From assembly GCF_016786325.1 (NCBI RefSeq), contig NZ_JADWYU010000083.1, positions 71,401 to 107,185 on the forward strand: a DNA stretch of 35,785 nucleotides, in the 5' to 3' direction. Made by a program: the position numbers and the translations under genes. The stretch is from Frankia nepalensis (GTDB lineage Bacteria > Actinomycetota > Actinomycetes > Frankiales > Frankiaceae). Shown one piece after another: positions 1 to 6,565 of the stretch. The notes beneath the pieces are model-generated. The model searched no databases. It saw only the letters and a program-made list of their open reading frames with translations, and was not told the origin of the DNA. Every line of letters begins with the position of its first letter. Position 1 is the stretch's first letter.

Positions 1-546
1 CGACAGACCGATCATCCGCATAACGGTCACCTACATACCGGTCACCGACATACCTGTCGCCCGCCGCCTCACCACCGACATACCGATCACCCACATACCT
101 ATCGTCGGCATACCGATCATCCACATACCGGTCACCGGCATACCTGCCGTCCGCCGCCTCACCACCGGCATACCTATCACCCGCATACCTATCGCCCACA
201 TACCCACCATCGACAGACCGATCATCCGCATAACGGTCACCTACATACCGGTCACCGACATACCTGTCGCCCGCCGCCTCACCACCGGCATACCGATCAT
301 CCACATACCTATCGTCGGCATACCGATCGTCCACGCGCCCACCATCGACAGACCGATCACCCGCATACCGGCTGTCCGCAGACCTATCATCAACATACCG
401 ATCATCTACATAACGGTCACCGGCATACCTGCCGTCCGCCGCCTCACCGCCAACGTGCCGGTCGGCCGCATACCCATCACCGACATACCTGTGGTCCGTA
501 GGCTCACCGCCAACATGCCGGTCAGCCGCATACCCGTCACCGGAGT
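1..546. repeat. 15-bp tandem repeat array (codes pentapeptide repeats)
   Basis: The stretch is built from diverged 15-bp units such as caccgacatacctgt, caccggcataccgat and cgcccgccgcctcac, with no unique spacers between them. There is a higher-order repeat: bases 1-77 recur identically at 211-287, an offset of 210 bp or 14 units, and the cgacagaccgat unit recurs again at 346. The period is a multiple of three, so unit gain or loss keeps the reading frame. The array continues off the left edge. Confidence 0.93.
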
Positions 547-832
547 CGTGCCCGAGATTGACCCCGGCAATGTCCGGCTGCTGGGTTATGATGTTGATAC
601 TCGGTACCAGCGTGAACAGGATCGGCATGAAGCTGCCCGCGACCTGTGGTTCCGCGCTAGCGGCGATAAACGCGTTGTTCGAGTCGGGAGAAGCGACCGG
701 TGAGTTGATGGGAGAAAATTCCCTCCTGCCGACCTCGACTATGGCTAGTGTGGTCCGATCGGGAAGCAGCTCCGCCCACTCCCCGGGCAGTTCCGCCTGC
801 CCGTCCCACCCCTGCGCGCCGACGTCACTCAT
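1..832 (-). CDS. LLPDR-motif protein with long D-R-Y-x-x pentapeptide repeat tail (C-terminus outside window)
   Basis: Function unknown. Reading the minus strand from ATG 832-830, the frame stays open to the left edge (277 codons visible, no stop). GGGAG lies 7 nt upstream of the ATG. Residues 20-31 are A-E-L-L-P-D-R-T-T-L-A-I, and residues 39-49 are F-S-P-I-N-S-P-V-A-S-P; both segments match the neighbouring gene at 1102-1359 in the same register, which is the main evidence that this strand is coding. Residues 50-95 are Asn/Ile/Gln-rich. From about residue 98 the protein becomes a 5-residue repeat, D-R-Y-[AV]-[GD], with G-G-E-A-A inserts every few units. It is rich in Asp, Arg, Tyr and Gly. 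Tyr is mostly TAT, which lowers the local GC. No signal peptide or membrane segment is visible. The opposite strand is also open through the repeat, but only the minus frame has a start, RBS and paralogue. Confidence 0.72.
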   Translation of the reverse strand, partial: MSDVGAQGWDGQAELPGEWAELLPDRTTLAIVEVGRREFSPINSPVASPDSNNAFIAASAEPQVAGSFMPILFTLVPSINIITQQPDIAGVNLGHDSGDGYAADRHVGGEPTDHRYVGDGYAADRHVGGEAADGRYAGDRYVDDRYVDDRSADSRYAGDRSVDGGRVDDRYADDRYVDDRYAGGEAAGDRYVGDRYVGDRYADDRSVDGGYVGDRYAGDRYAGGEAADGRYAGDRYVDDRYADDRYVGDRYVGGEAAGDRYVGDRYVGDRYADDRSV

Positions 833-1101
833 TTTCCATCTCCCAGCTCGATGCCTCCATGACTACCGTCAGTGAGGAGGCTAGTCGCGCCAGGAAGCGG
901 TTCAGAGTATTTCCGTGGGCGTGTCGCGGCCGCCGGAAGAAATTTCAGCTCCATTCAGAACGCGGTCAGGACACGAAGATTCCGACCGGCCAAAGGAATG
1001 CCGGGAAAGCAGCCGCAGGCGGCGGGGAAAGCGGCTCGCACGGGCTGGCCGACGGGCGGGGACGCCCGCGCCCACCGCGCCTTCCGCCCGCCCGGCCCTC
1101 A
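833..1101. other. Intergenic region between the two LLP[DE]R-motif genes
   Basis: This is 269 bp between the stop of the upstream minus-strand gene and the start of the repeat gene. The Shine-Dalgarno GGGAG of the repeat gene is at its left end. I see no further gene or clear terminator. Short frames on both strands here lack supporting starts or recognisable protein sequence. Confidence 0.5.
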
Positions 1102-1359
1102 CTACTGAGCGATGAAGGACTGGCTGTTGATGATGGACTGGATGACCGAGCCGTTGCCGTTGATGGTCTGCGTCTCCGAGGTGTTCACGACGGCGGCGTT
1201 CTCGGCGCCCGGCGAGTTGACCGGGTAGTTGATCGGCGCGAAAGTCTGCCGGTCATACTCCCAGATCGCCAGTGTCATGCGTTCGGGCAGCAGTTCGACC
1301 TGCTCCGCCGCCAGCTCGGCGATATCCATTCCCGGGCGGGCTGTTCCCATCAGATCCAT
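1102..1359 (-). CDS. Small LLPER-motif protein, paralogue of the repeat-tail gene
   Basis: An 85-residue protein of unknown function. Residues 21-32 are V-E-L-L-P-E-R-M-T-L-A-I and residues 40-50 are F-A-P-I-N-Y-P-V-N-S-P, matching residues 20-31 and 39-49 of the gene starting at 832. The C-terminal third is rich in Asn, Ser, Gln and Ile and ends F-I-A-Q. The ATG at 1359 was chosen because it aligns with the paralogue start within one residue and has GGGGA upstream; GTG 1365, ATG 1350 and ATG 1329 are in-frame alternatives. The head-plus-variable-tail layout of a short duplicated gene resembles precursor-peptide genes, but no modifying enzyme, protease or transporter is visible nearby, so that reading is only inference. 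Other options are a small structural protein or a toxin/antitoxin component. Confidence 0.62.
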   Translation of the reverse strand: MDLMGTARPGMDIAELAAEQVELLPERMTLAIWEYDRQTFAPINYPVNSPGAENAAVVNTSETQTINGNGSVIQSIINSQSFIAQ

Positions 1360-2044
1360 TCCCACACCATCCCCACTGCTCGCTCAAGCTGCTTTCTCCC
1401 GGACGGCACCCGCGATGACGTATCCCAGGGCTCCGGCTGGCGGCTTGCGACGGTTCGTGACGCATGAATATCCGGCCGGTGGCGAGGGCTTCACCGTTGA
1501 GGAGTGGGTCAGCCCGGGGCCTGACCATCACCACCCGCGGCGTCCAGCCGGTACGTCTGAACCCTAGGACCGCCCATGACGGACCGCAATGCGATGTTGA
1601 CAGTCGCGCTATCGAGGGTCCCGCCGCGGAGCAGGCGCCGGCCGGCCACGCCCGGTATGCGAGCACCGTCCCGATCAGCGTGACGGCGGCCGTCATGGTC
1701 CAGCCGACCGGCCGAAGTGGCCTACCGCCGACGAACTCGCCGATCTCTGGCGTCTGGACGACCACGACCAGACAGCCGCGGCCACGGGCAGAACGCCATG
1801 GAGGCACCCGGCCGTCGTCAGTGGCAGTCCTCGCGGTCACGGCCGGCCAGCAAGGAGGTTGCGCCGACCATCTGGATCAGGTGGGCGAGGGCCAGCTCGG
1901 GTAGTCACTTTCCGTGTTCGACGATCACAGAGGGTGGGAAGGAGTGGGCCCAGGCGGGCTCAGGGGTCGAGCCGCGCCACTCCACGCGATCCCGGGACGT
2001 GGCCGCTCACCAGGCGGCACGCCCGGCGCAAAGGGGGGAACCCG
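1360..2044. other. Gene-poor stretch
   Basis: About 685 bp without an intact gene. Overlapping frames on both strands show no consistent third-position G/C bias or start signal over their length. The only recognisable element is a short transporter-like fragment on the minus strand near 1640-1790. The Shine-Dalgarno of the DUF4232 gene is at the right end. Confidence 0.5.
1640..1790 (-). pseudogene. Possible remnant of an NRAMP-type transporter C-terminus
   Basis: On the minus strand one frame reads G-E-F-V-G-G-R-P-L-R-P-V-G-W followed by about 20 hydrophobic residues. This resembles the last cytoplasmic loop (M-G-E-F-V-N-x-R) and final helix of NRAMP-family metal transporters. There is no start codon in a sensible place, no upstream transporter sequence in frame, and the frame continues into unrelated sequence. 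I read it as a decayed fragment; chance similarity is quite possible. Confidence 0.25.
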
Positions 2045-2593
2045 GTGCGAAGGATCAGCCAGACCATCCTGACGGCGGCACTTTCCGTCGGCGCGGTGTG
2101 CGGTAGCGCGGCCGGTGCGTCGGCCGGCGGCCCGACCGGGCCGGCCGCCACGTCGCCGGACTCGAAACACCTGCCCGCGGCGTGCCTCTCGCTCGCGCTC
2201 CGCCCGAGCATCGTCGGCTCCGAGGGCGCCGCGGGCAGCGTCTACGTGACGGTCGGCTACAAGAACGTCGGCTTCCGCTCGTGCACCGTCAATGGATTCC
2301 CGTCGGTCGCGTTCGCCAACCGGTTCGGTCTGCGGATCGGCGCGCCGGCCGTGCACCAGAGCGGGCAGGCCAAGCCGGTCGTGCTCGCGCCCGGCAAGAC
2401 GGCGACGTTCCTCGTCCGGCAGGTCCAGGCCGGCATCCAGGAAGGCTGCCTCGAGCCGAGTTCCCACGTGCGCGCGTACGGCCTGCGGATCATCCCGCCT
2501 GGCGGCGGGCTGCCGCGGATCCTGCCCTACGGCGCCGAGGCCTGCCTGCGACCCTCGGTCCAGCAGCTCAGCGTCGGACCGGTCACCAGCTGA
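2045..2593 (+). CDS. Secreted DUF4232-domain protein
   Basis: A 182-residue exported protein of unknown function. GTG 2045 is preceded by a GGGGGGAA Shine-Dalgarno. Residues 1-30 form a signal peptide: V-R-R-I at the N-terminus, then a hydrophobic Ala/Leu/Val core and A-S-A/A-G cleavage-type residues. The mature part starts its globular domain at A-A-C-L and shows the DUF4232 pattern: V-G-Y-x-N-V-G, S-C-T-V-N-G-F-P-S-V, then P-G-K-T-A-T-F-L-V. Cysteines occur near A-A-C-L, S-C-T-V, G-C-L-E and A-C-L-R, suitable for disulfides outside the cell. DUF4232 proteins are common secreted or lipoprotein-type actinobacterial proteins; no lipobox is visible here. It stands alone, about 310 bp before the tellurium-type genes. 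Confidence 0.85.
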   Translation: MRRISQTILTAALSVGAVCGSAAGASAGGPTGPAATSPDSKHLPAACLSLALRPSIVGSEGAAGSVYVTVGYKNVGFRSCTVNGFPSVAFANRFGLRIGAPAVHQSGQAKPVVLAPGKTATFLVRQVQAGIQEGCLEPSSHVRAYGLRIIPPGGGLPRILPYGAEACLRPSVQQLSVGPVTS

Positions 2594-2906
2594 TCTGACC
2601 CACCGGTCCTTCGGCCCGGGATGCGTCGCCCTTGGCGACCTCCCGGGCCGTTGGGCGTGGTCGGACGGGCGATCTGGCGGGTTCGCGCTGGATGTGCCCG
2701 ACACGTCGGCCGCTCGGCCGCCCGGCCGCCCGTGGCGCGCGGAGGCGCTCGCCGCGCCGCCGGTGCGAGTTGTCCAAACACGTCCGCTGTGTCCCCTGCC
2801 TGACTGCTGAATGCGGCGGATCGTCAGACAAGCCGGCGTAGGGTCGAAATCGCTGGTCGCCTTGGATGACCTCGATAGACGGGGCACGAGCGCGGAAAGG
2901 ACCGAC
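2594..2906. other. Intergenic region upstream of the TelA-like gene
   Basis: 313 bp with no supported gene; the frames seen here are GC-driven. It should hold the promoter of the plus-strand stress genes. The bases around 2860-2880 (tggatgacctcgatagac) are locally less GC-rich, but I cannot define a -35/-10 pair with confidence. Confidence 0.45.
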
Positions 2907-4139
2907 ATGTCGGATTCGCTGAATCTGGGCGGGCCGCTGGCTCCGCCCGCCGTGGCGACCGTCAAGCCCCCGGCGGTGGGCACGCTCGAACTCACGCCGC
3001 CGGCGCCGGTCCCCGTCATCCCGGATGACCAGGTCGACAGCATGGTCCCGATCGACGAGGCAACCCGCGCCCAGCTACGAACCCGCGCCGCCGCCTTCGC
3101 CGACGACCTCGCCGCGCAGGACCCGCGCAGCCCCGCGTTCCAGGAGAAGATCAACGACATCACCCGGATGGGTGAACGGGAGATCGTCGCCAGCGCCCGG
3201 GTGTCGAACCGGATGCTCGAGCGCCCGGCCGCCGCGATGCGCTCCAGCCGGGGCCGGGGCGGTCCCGCCGGCGACGCCCAGACGCGGGTCGCGGGCACGC
3301 TCGTCGAGCTGCGCCGCACCGTGACCGACCTCGACCCGGGCCGCGCCGACCTGAAGGGCGCCCGCAAGCTGCTCGGCGTGGTGCCGTTCGGCAACAAGAT
3401 CGCCAGCTACTTCCAGCGCTACCAGTCGGCGCAGAAGCAGCTCGACGCCATCATCACGGCGCTGGGCTCCGGCCAGGACGAGCTGCGCAAGGACAACGCG
3501 GCCATCGAGCAGGAGAAGGCGAACCTGTGGGCCGCCATGGGCAAGCTCACCGAGTACGCGACCCTCGCGAAGGCCCTCGACGGCGCGGTCACCGCGAAGG
3601 TCGAGCAGCTGCGGTACACGAGCCCGGCCGCCGCGGACGCGCTCACCTCCGACGCGCTGTTCCCCATCCGCCAGCGCGAGCAGGACCTGCTGACCCAGCT
3701 CGCGGTCAGCGTGCAGGGCTATCTCGCGCTCGACCTGGTGCGCAAGAACAACCTCGAGCTCATCAAGGGCGTCGACCGGGCGCAGACGACGACCGTCGCC
3801 GCGCTGCGCACCGCGGTGGTCGTCGCGCAGGCACTGGCGAACCAGAAGCTGGTGCTCGACCAGATCAACGCGCTGAACGCCACGACCAACAACATGATCG
3901 TGCAGACCAGCGAGCTCCTGCGCCAGCAGTCCGGCCAGATCCAGGCGCAGGCCTCGGCGAGCACCGTCAGCGTCGAGGCGCTGCAGACCGCGTTCGACAA
4001 CATCTTCGCGACGATGGACGAGATCGACTCCTACCGGGTCAAGGCGGTGGACAGCATGGCCTCGACGGTCGCCGCGCTGGAGACCCAGGTGGGAAGGTCG
4101 AAGGCGTACCTGGAGCGCGCCCGCGCGAACGAGCGCTGA
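2907..4139 (+). CDS. Toxic anion resistance protein, TelA/KlaA family
   Basis: A 410-residue cytoplasmic protein of the TelA (toxic anion resistance) family, found with TerD-type proteins in bacterial tellurite and general stress systems; its biochemical role is unresolved. ATG 2907 follows GGAAAGGA. Residues 1-45 are Pro/Ala-rich and probably disordered. The rest is almost all helical with heptad-like Leu/Ala/Gln patterns. Family features are the L-L-G-V-V-P-F-G-N-K-I segment followed by Y-F-x-R-Y-x-S-A-Q, the Q-E-K-A-N-L-W segment, and the late N-A-T-T-N-N-M-I-V-Q-T-S-E-L-L helix. Length is typical. It is the first gene of a plus-strand run with the 4237 and 4832 genes. Confidence 0.93.
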   Translation: MSDSLNLGGPLAPPAVATVKPPAVGTLELTPPAPVPVIPDDQVDSMVPIDEATRAQLRTRAAAFADDLAAQDPRSPAFQEKINDITRMGEREIVASARVSNRMLERPAAAMRSSRGRGGPAGDAQTRVAGTLVELRRTVTDLDPGRADLKGARKLLGVVPFGNKIASYFQRYQSAQKQLDAIITALGSGQDELRKDNAAIEQEKANLWAAMGKLTEYATLAKALDGAVTAKVEQLRYTSPAAADALTSDALFPIRQREQDLLTQLAVSVQGYLALDLVRKNNLELIKGVDRAQTTTVAALRTAVVVAQALANQKLVLDQINALNATTNNMIVQTSELLRQQSGQIQAQASASTVSVEALQTAFDNIFATMDEIDSYRVKAVDSMASTVAALETQVGRSKAYLERARANER

Positions 4140-4236: not shown

Positions 4237-4764
4237 GTGATCCGGCGACGGCGATCGGGGTCCGCGGGCGCCGTCGACGCCGCGGACGGAGCGGGCGCGG
4301 CTGGTGACGGGCGAAGGCGGGAGGACACCGAGACCAGCCGCGAGGTGCGGCGGCTGTGGTGGGCGCTCGCCGGGGTCGTCGGCGAGGCCAACGCGGAGGG
4401 CGCGCGGCTCCCTCCGGGAGCGGTGCCGACGGTGCGCGACGTCGACGACGTGCTGCGCCCCCTGCTGGAGCACCTCGAGATCCACCCGCCGAACGGCGAG
4501 GAACTGCGCGGCCTGATCGCGATCATCGACGACTATCTTCCCCAGGCGCTACGGGACTACCTGGCGCTGCCGGCGCGCTACGCCGAGCGGCCCGGCCCGA
4601 CCGGCACCTCGCCGGCCGACGACCTGGTCCGTCAGCTGGTGCTCCTCGACGAGGGGGCGAACGAGCTGGCCGATCTCGTGTACACCGGCGATGCCGCCAG
4701 GCTCGCGGTCCAGGCCCGCTTCCTGGACGCCAAGTTCCGACGTTCCGACCTCGACCTGGAATGA
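4237..4764 (+). CDS. Unknown small protein between TelA-like and TerA-like genes
   Basis: A 175-residue protein I do not recognise. GTG 4237 has a near-ideal AGGAGGGG Shine-Dalgarno. The first 35 residues are Arg/Gly/Ala/Asp-rich and probably flexible. The remainder is soluble and helical: E-V-R-R-L-W-W-A-L-A-G-V-V, a central P-L-L-E-H-L-E-I-H-P-P-N, then I-I-D-D-Y-L-P-Q-A-L-R-D-Y-L-A-L-P and a C-terminal acidic helix ending D-L-D-L-E. There are no cysteines and no membrane segment. It begins 97 bp after telA and ends 67 bp before the TerA-like gene on the same strand, so a role in the same Ter-type stress complex is the best inference. Confidence 0.85.
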   Translation: MIRRRRSGSAGAVDAADGAGAAGDGRRREDTETSREVRRLWWALAGVVGEANAEGARLPPGAVPTVRDVDDVLRPLLEHLEIHPPNGEELRGLIAIIDDYLPQALRDYLALPARYAERPGPTGTSPADDLVRQLVLLDEGANELADLVYTGDAARLAVQARFLDAKFRRSDLDLE

Positions 4765-4831
4765 ACCGGACAGCCGACGACCAGCGGATGGCGACCATCG
4801 TGACCCTCGCGAGTGCCTCGAGCGGCGCCCC

Positions 4832-6565
4832 ATGACCGTCCTCCTGCCGAAGGGCGGCAACGTGCTGCTCTCCGCCGCCAGCCCCGGCCTCGAGCGGGTC
4901 CAGGTGGACCTGGGCTGGCGGGACCGGCCCGGCGACCGCGCGCCCGCCCTCGAGCTGGACGGCCTGGTCGTCGTCGAGCGGGCCGGCGGCGACGGGGCGG
5001 AACCGGCCGCCGAGCTGCTGCTCGCGCATCAGGCGCCCAACCCGGCGGAGAGCCCGCGGCCGCCGGCGGCCACCCACGAGGGCGCGGAACTGGCGACGCT
5101 GGTGGTCACCCTCGCCGCCATACCGGCCGAGGTGAGCCGGCTGCAGCTGGGCGCGGTCATCGTCGACGCGGCGGGCCGCCGGCAGACGTTCCGTTCGGTG
5201 CGAGGGGCCTTCATCCGGGTGTCGAACCCGGCCGGCGACGTGGAGATCGCCCACTACGACGTGGAGCCGGAAACCGGGCAGGAGACGGCGCTGCTGTTCG
5301 GCGAGCTGTACCGCCATCCCTCCGGCTGGAAGTTCCGGGCCGTCGGGCAGGGCTTCACCACCGGGCTCGCCGGCTTCGCCGACCCCCGCCACCACCAGGT
5401 CATGGCCGCGCGCCCCGCCGACGTCGCCGGCTTTCTCACCCGTACCTCCCCCACCCGCTCGCGGCGCAGGGTCACCGACCACCTGCACCCGCCGCCCGCG
5501 CCCGCGGCGATGGCCGCGCCGAACCAGCCGGCCGCCGCCTCCGGCCCGCCGCTCGCGCACCGCCCGTCCACGGCACCGCCGAGGCCGGCTGATCACGGCC
5601 CGCGTGACGCGGCACGAGCACCGGCGCCGCCGGTCCGGCCGGCCCCACCGGTCTCGTCGACGCCGGCTCGACCCGCCGCCCGCTCGCCGCTCGACCTGAG
5701 CGGCGAGCCCGGGCCGCCCGCGCCTTTGCCACCGAGGTCGCCGACTCCGTCGCCGTCACCCGCCGCCGAGCCGGCGCGGCGCTCGCCTCTGGACCTCGGC
5801 GGCGACGGGAGCGCGAAGGCCGCCGCGCGGGCGCCGGGGACACCGGCCGGGCGGTCACCACTCGACCTCGGCGGCGACAGGCCGGCACCGACCCCGGCGG
5901 GAGCCGCCCGCCCGGGCGGCGCCGTGGTCTTCGGGGAGCAGTCGTCGCGGCACCGGCAGCGCCTGGAACACGTCACGGCGCTCGACGACGACCACCCGGC
6001 GACCGCCTGGACAGCCGAGAAACGCGGCTCGGGGTCACTGACCGTCACTTTGCGCTGGACCCAGCTGACCAACCGGAGCGGGCTGCCGCGTCCGAGCGAC
6101 ATCCAGCTGGGCTGCTTCTGGCAGGCGTTCGACGGGGCCGCCGGCGTCCTGCAGACGCTCGGCGGCGCCACCAGCGCGCCCGGTCCCGGCGCCGGCCGGC
6201 AGGTGCTGGCGCTGGCCCCGAGGGACGAACGAGACGGCCAGACGATGTTCGTCGACCTGCGCGCGCTGCCGACGTTCAAGCGGTTCTTCGTCTTCGCCTA
6301 CGGCCTGCACGGCGCCCCGGCGTGGACGGCGCTGCGGCCGGTCCTCACCGTCAGCGCGCGCACCGGGGAGACCCTCACGATCCGGCTCGACGACGCCTCG
6401 CCGACCACGCGGACCTGCGTCGTCGCGTCGTTCCACCTCGCCCAGGACGACCTGGTCATCCGCCGGGAGCACGACTGCCTCGACGGTCCACAGGCCGAGG
6501 CCGCCGCCCGCTACGGCTGGGCGCTCGACTGGAACCCGGACGGGATGACCGTCGCCGACCGGTGA
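4832..6565 (+). CDS. TerA/TerD-type stress protein with proline-rich linker
   Basis: A 577-residue protein of the TerD superfamily, whose beta-sandwich domains bind calcium and act in tellurite, phage and oxidative stress resistance. The N-terminal TerD-like domain is about residues 1-195 (starts M-T-V-L-L-P-K-G-G-N-V; contains V-Q-V-D-L-G-W, then G-A-V-I-V-D and F-I-R-V). A low-complexity Pro/Ala/Arg linker spans about 200-360. A second TerD/TerA-like domain covers about 363-577 and ends G-W-A-L-D-W-N-P-D-G-M, as in two-domain TerA proteins. The linker has three copies of R-S-P-L-D-L-[SG]-G-[ED] near residues 285, 317 and 342. ATG 4832 was chosen because the domain starts there; its Shine-Dalgarno is weak and upstream in-frame codons do not look like protein. 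Confidence 0.88.
   Translation: MTVLLPKGGNVLLSAASPGLERVQVDLGWRDRPGDRAPALELDGLVVVERAGGDGAEPAAELLLAHQAPNPAESPRPPAATHEGAELATLVVTLAAIPAEVSRLQLGAVIVDAAGRRQTFRSVRGAFIRVSNPAGDVEIAHYDVEPETGQETALLFGELYRHPSGWKFRAVGQGFTTGLAGFADPRHHQVMAARPADVAGFLTRTSPTRSRRRVTDHLHPPPAPAAMAAPNQPAAASGPPLAHRPSTAPPRPADHGPRDAARAPAPPVRPAPPVSSTPARPAARSPLDLSGEPGPPAPLPPRSPTPSPSPAAEPARRSPLDLGGDGSAKAAARAPGTPAGRSPLDLGGDRPAPTPAGAARPGGAVVFGEQSSRHRQRLEHVTALDDDHPATAWTAEKRGSGSLTVTLRWTQLTNRSGLPRPSDIQLGCFWQAFDGAAGVLQTLGGATSAPGPGAGRQVLALAPRDERDGQTMFVDLRALPTFKRFFVFAYGLHGAPAWTALRPVLTVSARTGETLTIRLDDASPTTRTCVVASFHLAQDDLVIRREHDCLDGPQAEAAARYGWALDWNPDGMTVADR

Follow-up and report, generated by a model that had tools for sequence, protein, structure and literature searches.

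A leader-bearing protein with an Asp-Arg-Tyr pentapeptide array in a conserved A-B-M50 gene cassette of Frankiaceae

The array of D-R-Y-[AV]-[GD] pentapeptides at the left edge of the analyzed DNA of Frankia nepalensis (a stretch of 35,785 nucleotides, hereafter the window) belongs to a leader-bearing protein, B, that is encoded together with a shorter paralogue, A, and an M50 metalloprotease. The odd low-complexity array thereby gains a specific context, as part of a leader-tagged probable M50 substrate in a recurring three-gene cassette. We consider it somewhat probable that the three genes make up a leader-peptide/RRE-protease cassette (RRE, RiPP recognition element) in which the M50 protein cuts A and B; that the grown tail of B would be a disordered sticky polymer is a more tentative part of this reading. 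The earlier note on this DNA was right about a real minus-strand gene, and its residues 1-95 have conserved homologs; the leader-sharing pair, the M50 cassette and the lineage-specific growth of the tail had been missed.

Gene B is read on the minus strand from position 832 to position 1 of the window as a single open frame of 277 aa, which starts at an ATG with a ribosome-binding site (GGGAG) 7 nt 5' of it and holds no stop in the window. The start, the ribosome-binding site and an array running past the window edge had been described in the earlier note and are borne out. Residues 1-93 are ordinary sequence and a 5-residue array begins at residue 94, the D-R-Y-[AV]-[GD] pentapeptides and their GEAA[DG] or GEPTD breaks occupying positions 1..538 (minus strand) from residue 99 onwards with every copy in a single 15-bp register. 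The commonest units are DRYVG (6), DRYVD (4), DRYAD (4), and DRYAG (3), and the breaks counted were GEAAD (2), GEAAG (2), and GEPTD (1). The 184 aa of the tail that lie in the window comprise 41 D, 33 G, 28 R, 24 Y, 23 A, and 18 V; all 24 Tyr share one phase of five, which was equalled in none of 20,000 shuffles, and this part is acidic (46 D+E vs. 28 R+K, pI 4.46). Tandem-repeat rows over the array had a period that is a multiple of 15 bp in 15 of 16 cases and a period of 27 bp in the other, and the array DNA had two matches in its own genome, both at the array locus.

Searches of B and A against Pfam and NCBIfam (E ≤ 1) returned only a chance-level match (DraK_HK_N, E 0.53) and no family above cut-off, so that the description of B as an unrecognized protein stands. 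The Pfam pentapeptide models gave no match to B at E ≤ 1 and the array is without Leu, in line with the earlier view that B falls outside the classical pentapeptide-repeat proteins. No match was obtained for B, A, and the M50 protein in a PADLOC run, for window positions 200-832 in a plasmid DNA search, or for window positions 1-3000 in Rfam; a PDB sequence search with the profiles A3, A1, and A2 (E ≤ 10) gave no credible match, and a scan of window positions 500-1900 found no promoter or terminator. Among the open-access PMC articles listed as matches, neither the titles nor the starts of the abstracts described this A-B-M50 cassette or an array of DRY pentapeptides.

Directly to the left of window position 1 lies a 100-N scaffold gap (locus L003 16801-16900, equivalent to G000:C44:71301-71400) inside the array. 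When the contig was extended leftwards, as had been proposed, the array resumed beyond the gap for 95 residues with 11 Tyr in one phase and ended at a stop (L003 16511-16513), with the M50 gene downstream. The visible tail residues on both sides of the gap sum to 279, a length that is not reliable in this assembly because the gap lies inside the array, and continuity of the B frame over the gap is assumed. An assembly artefact was rejected as the source of the array since the copies have diverged and the array resumes past the gap. The substitution test among repeat copies gave a synonymous fraction of 0.44 in the B frame (0.27 expected) and the same values in another frame; the assignment of the array frame rests on its continuity with the conserved N-terminus of B, and the substitution statistics do not single one frame out. 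A plus-strand ORF with matches (L003 15560-17398) overlies the array and also the M50 gene, and its matches were taken to come from its part antisense to the M50 gene; plus-strand coding was rejected as an explanation of the array since the N-terminal homology sits in the minus-strand frame. The earlier note would have given up its reading had conserved minus-strand homologs of residues 1-95 been absent, and these were found in Frankiaceae genomes.

Gene A (1102..1365, minus strand) encodes an 87-aa paralogue of the N-terminus of B (42% identity over 72 aa, E 6e-17) whose C-terminal half differs. Both proteins carry a leader with the motif E-x2-ELLP-x-R-x-TL (EWAELLPDRTTL at residues 18-29 of B, 746..781, minus strand), which is invariant in the aligned A and B proteins; E17, E20-L-L-P23, R25, T27, and L28 (first-row numbering) are identical in 24 of 24. 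Behind the leader the two diverge, the C-termini of A being polar and B having a hydrophobic segment of 19 residues (VAGSFMPILFTLVPSINII, residues 64-82, 587..643, minus strand), which is a candidate membrane or cleavage segment (mean Kyte-Doolittle value 1.8, and 1.5-2.2 in three relatives, over the four proteins computed, vs. 0.5 for the best segment of A). Three genomes (loci L020-L022) hold instead a single peptide of ~60 aa with the leader AELAAEHAELLPER and a Gly/Phe-rich end that adjoins an M50 gene, and the A/B profile covers these peptides only to position 35-43. A fixed leader with an exchangeable downstream part is typical of the precursors of a leader-binding enzyme, and the conserved leader and variable core by which RiPP precursors are generally recognized were found in A and B.

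The A-B-M50 cassette was found in 15 of 35 Frankiaceae genomes and amounts to 16 cassettes, with two in Pseudofrankia sp. BMG5.36; the other carriers include Pseudofrankia asymbiotica, Frankia torreyi, F. canadensis, F. tisae, F. gtarii, and Frankia spp. QA3, AiPs1, and AgB1.9. The A/B profile, built from 24 sequences, matched 18 of the 35 genomes including our own (15 with A and B, three with one leader-like peptide) and no genome among 395 others sampled across the phylum. A, B, and M50 occurred together in all 11 loci of 20 kb that were chosen for holding A; these came from ten Frankiaceae genomes, our own included, of which one contributed two cassettes. For 18 of 21 A/B loci (L006-L026) the flank that was retrieved contains the M50 gene, and the A loci without it (L016 in G002, L025 in G001, and L026 in G003) are extra A copies in genomes with a full cassette elsewhere. 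The cassette recurs in several genomic contexts. Besides the cassette itself no ORF of at least 90 aa was common to all 11 neighborhoods; flanking genes common to at least two other loci were confined to the groups L035/L040/L043 and L036/L037/L041, one ORF of the former group being matched in L039 too, and there were none in L003, L034, L038, and L042. To the right of the cassette the window holds plus-strand genes for a DUF4232 protein (1859-2593), a TelA-family protein (2811-4139), and a TerD-domain protein (4691-6565), and membership of the cassette in a TelA/TerD gene set was rejected as its flanks vary among relatives. A nitroreductase-family gene (L003 13915-14652, plus strand) adjoins the M50 gene on the opposite strand and has no counterpart common to the other neighborhoods.

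The M50 metalloprotease (559 aa, L003 14603-16282, equivalent to G000:C44:69103-70782) is encoded downstream of B and left of the window, and carries the HExxH and LDG motifs of M50/site-2 proteases as HECGH (residue 237) and LDGYY (residue 332). It matched the daptide metalloprotease model NF041824 over residues 82-372 with 94 bits (E 1e-26; curated cut-off 300) and the YydH/LiaK model NF058609 with 49.2 bits (E 5e-13; cut-off 225), and reached only E 0.072 with Pfam M50, below cut-off. Judged from these matches it is of the daptide/epipeptide M50 type and related to the daptide peptidase, without being a member of that family. The epipeptide precursor EpeX is also called YydF.

The N-terminal regions of 16 of these M50 proteins were compared with NCBIfam and Pfam, and matches were obtained for ApyI ("RiPP maturation protein"; 11 of 16, best E 3.3e-5), for PqqD in NCBIfam (4 of 16, best E 2.6e-4) and in Pfam (2 of 16, best E 5.5e-4), and for a winged-helix model (4 of 16, E 0.062 or worse), all of them below the curated cut-offs, which are set for whole proteins. 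We infer that ApyI model positions 204-243 correspond to the ApyI RRE. In hhalign 63 columns of the M50 N-terminal region aligned with a set of 11 proteins that match PF05402 (E 2e-4, probability 46%), and the A1 profile used as a control gave E 0.15 and a probability of 0.4% with the same set; L158 was left out of the compared rows because of its wrong frame. The M50 N-terminus is probably a PqqD-like RRE according to these profile comparisons. An AlphaFold model of the RRE and M50 region was set aside (pLDDT 42), and one of the RRE by itself was partial, with three helices and no strand (pLDDT 71); fold searches with the latter gave no significant match, with a best E of 7.1 in Foldseek and a best Z of 4.3 in VIA, and PqqD-type structures were absent among the matches listed.

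According to the reading we prefer, the probable RRE of PqqD type in the N-terminal part of the M50 protein would bind the motif common to A and B. The protease would then cut both proteins within the membrane or close to it, and what lies beyond the cut, in B including the array, would be released or displayed at the membrane. Processing of A and B by the M50 protein is likely, and the cut site in B is most plausibly the hydrophobic segment. The M50-type motifs and the membrane-like segment of B might also be read as a signaling arrangement, in which B would be membrane-anchored and the M50 protein a classical site-2 protease that frees a cytoplasmic fragment on a signal, with nothing exported; A has no membrane-like segment, however, neither Pfam nor NCBIfam gave a family above cut-off for A, B, or four distant relatives, and the 11 neighborhoods share no further gene, and we regard this as very unlikely.

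The comparison of B proteins bears on the origin of the array, which is present in one of the 16 cassettes, the other 15 Frankiaceae cassettes being without DRY units. All 8 B proteins examined from the genus Frankia (g6) stop within ~10 residues after the hydrophobic segment and have no tail. The eight Pseudofrankia-type cassettes (g1) have an extra tail behind the segment that is mostly Asp/Gly/His-rich (e.g., DGHVDDAPVNDGHVDDAPVNEGH), and 6 of 8 of these B tails terminate in W[ML]D[FL][IL]R[RK]-x-FG. In the cassette most similar to ours by A (L039; A 74%, M50 80%) the B protein ends in DGSTADPKVGDGLDKG and its only counterpart to the array is GHHADDGSTADPKVGDGLDKG, about two seed units, which in a by-eye alignment with GHDSGDGYAADRHVGGEPTD of our own strain looks like the seed state of the array. 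By these comparisons the array is an elongation, specific to this lineage, of a tail that is absent or short in relatives; about two Asp-rich pentapeptides would have multiplied by duplication of units to the ~50 now visible.

A multivalent sticky polymer, as proposed in the earlier note, is a reasonable fit to the acidic, Arg/Tyr/Asp/Gly-based composition, and a disordered tail with regular Arg and Tyr spacing could act in a matrix or a condensate. Taken by itself this role of the tail is a tentative proposal that we think less likely than not, and as the other 15 cassettes are without a DRY array it has no comparative support in Frankiaceae. Neutral drift is a serious rival to it, if a somewhat unlikely one: a dispensable disordered tail would have drifted by duplication of 15-bp units, and only the ~93 N-terminal residues of B would matter. 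The absence of the array from all other cassettes, the ends of the B proteins in L039 and in the genus Frankia, and the long block duplications among copies (e.g., a 210-bp block duplicated with 83% match) suit this explanation. On the other hand, the 49 units tabulated (35 before the gap, 14 after) contain no stop and never lose register, and a distant genome (G265, below) carries an Asp/Arg/aromatic tail. The codon slots are divided between the two. Six of the 49 units contain GEA/GEP breaks and were excluded from the slot counts. In the remaining 43, the synonymous share of the single-step codon differences was 16 of 19 for the Asp slot (0.17 expected), 16 of 23 for the Arg slot (0.42 expected), and 9 of 18 for slot 4 (0.33 expected), which speaks against neutrality, whereas neither the Tyr slot (0 of 6; 0.17 expected) nor slot 5 (4 of 16; 0.33 expected) showed an excess, as neutrality would have it. 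The excess at Asp and Arg hints at selection on the protein, and the Tyr and fifth slots do not; since the copies are non-independent and another frame scores equally, the slot statistics are not taken as proof.

Related systems were found elsewhere in Actinomycetota. The RRE and M50 profile (E ≤ 1e-15) matched 28 of 198 genomes, our own included; 18 of the matches begin within the first ten profile positions and 10 lie mainly over the M50 part. Of 14 of these loci put through a motif scan (L084-L097), seven have one to three small ORFs upstream that carry a related leader, that of L092 being doubtful, and L096 (G299) has none near the protease; other searches added six further distant RRE-M50 loci with related leader ORFs. 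The distant leader has the consensus ELEAQ-x-GE-x-LPDREEMSLVNANVA (L084-L086), and its family aligned with the A/B leader family of Frankiaceae in hhalign with E 9e-5 and a probability of 59%. The distant-leader profile matched 18 of 396 genomes, in 16 of which an RRE-M50 type protease lies nearby (11 from match coordinates and five from a check of the locus, one of these partial at the locus edge); the matches in G299 and G151 are without such a protease nearby.

The distant leader also precedes longer proteins. Those of ~230-350 aa at the RRE-M50 genes of L108 (G313), L109 (G080), L111 (G352), L112 (G081), L113 (G036), and L115 (G294) have a leader LP[AD]KE and two Ala/Asn/Val-rich domains of the NANVAAPIDAAVAANV type joined by a low-complexity linker of Asp/Gly/Thr type (e.g., PDGTLPDGTLPDGT), and no Pfam family above cut-off was found for the two that were searched. 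A 180-aa leader protein beside the RRE-M50 gene of G265 (L099/L118) has the Asp/Arg/aromatic tail DRDEDGFDDRYEDRDEDGFDDRF, and a 144-aa one in G449 (L100/L119) has Asn/Gln/Phe-rich stretches. Low-complexity elongation behind the leader thus recurs, with a DRY-like tail seen in one distant genome only (G265). Searches of four distant leader relatives against Pfam and NCBIfam gave no family above cut-off, and the matches to DRY_EERY (E 8.6e-4) and Gasdermin (E 0.0057), both below cut-off, were taken as compositional chance. Directly downstream of two distant RRE-M50 genes lie genes for signal-peptide-like proteins (L129:7442-8164 and L133:7764-8453, both minus strand) that are alike by eye, have no Pfam family above cut-off and are a possible further component.

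These loci also bear on a true RiPP pathway, in which enzymes encoded elsewhere or by strain-specific neighbors would modify the cores before the M50 protein removes the leader, the Tyr, Arg, and Asp of the array being the sites. Such a pathway would account for the conserved leader, the variable core and the probable RRE in the leader protease, the own genome holds a separate PqqD-family match, and the nitroreductase-family gene stands next to the M50 gene. Against this, no ORF of at least 90 aa, that gene included, is common to all 11 neighborhoods, none of six neighbors in four distant loci matched a known modifying enzyme in Pfam, and some related substrates are proteins of ~230-350 aa; we consider the pathway quite unlikely. 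The proposal in the earlier note that the array is a repeated substrate for Tyr modification is left unsupported, as no modifying enzyme is common to the neighborhoods examined.

If the leader-guided cleavage that we favor is correct, RRE-guided proteolysis would handle whole proteins too, beyond maturing small modified peptides, and the strain would be a source of a natural Arg/Asp/Tyr repeat polymer whose seed state is recognizable in its nearest relative. A wider speculation, which we think unlikely as a whole, is that RiPP systems have a relative in Actinomycetota that works without modification: an RRE-site-2 protease would read a leader on whole proteins (~60 to at least 370 residues) and release or display them, here, in a Pseudofrankia-type strain, as a natural Asp-Arg-Tyr polymer of a condensate or matrix.

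Several known systems resemble parts of this cassette. With the pentapeptide-repeat (A-D/N-L-x-x) beta-helix proteins the array has a 5-residue period in common, whereas its units are charged and aromatic and without Leu. Resilin-like polypeptides of the type (GRGDSPYS)n, designed from insect resilin, are described in the portion of the source used here as demixing below an upper critical temperature (UCST) (PMC10709347). The array is alike in having short Arg/Asp/Gly/Tyr repeats, a likeness of composition only with no relationship claimed, and its units are DRY[AV][GD] of five residues vs. eight residues with Pro and Ser. In epipeptide systems the M50 protease EpeP is thought, according to a partial text, to cut and perhaps export the small precursor EpeX (PMC10885120). 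An M50 protein and a small precursor are likewise found here, but the cassette has precursor pairs, no radical SAM gene is common to its neighborhoods, and its M50 protein reaches 49 of 225 bits with the corresponding model.

The closest known system is that of the daptide precursors with MpaP, without daptide chemistry. In the excerpt of the daptide study on which we draw, an RRE is fused N-terminally to a site-2 protease and encoded near short ORFs, 2.3 on average, whose N-terminal motif is conserved (PMC10036551). Several leader ORFs beside a gene for an M50 protein with a probable RRE are the same design as that of MpaA1-A3 with the RRE-fused MpaP, as excerpted there (PMC10036551). The leaders differ, with E-x2-ELLP-x-R-x-TL here and ELExMEAP in daptides (PMC10036551, in the same excerpt), and so do the ends, daptide precursors terminating in Thr, A in Q, QW, KW, QR, or QH, and no listed B protein in Thr; B also differs from daptide precursors in its tail, of which at least 279 residues are visible. 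No ORF of at least 90 aa for the daptide RRE accessory protein, oxidative decarboxylase, aminotransferase, or methyltransferase is common to the 11 loci, a comparison that concerns common genes as the neighbors found in single loci are mostly without annotation. By the tests made the cassette is neither a daptide nor an epipeptide system, and it appears from its sequences to be a variant of the known design in which an RRE-fused site-2 protease is accompanied by leader peptides.
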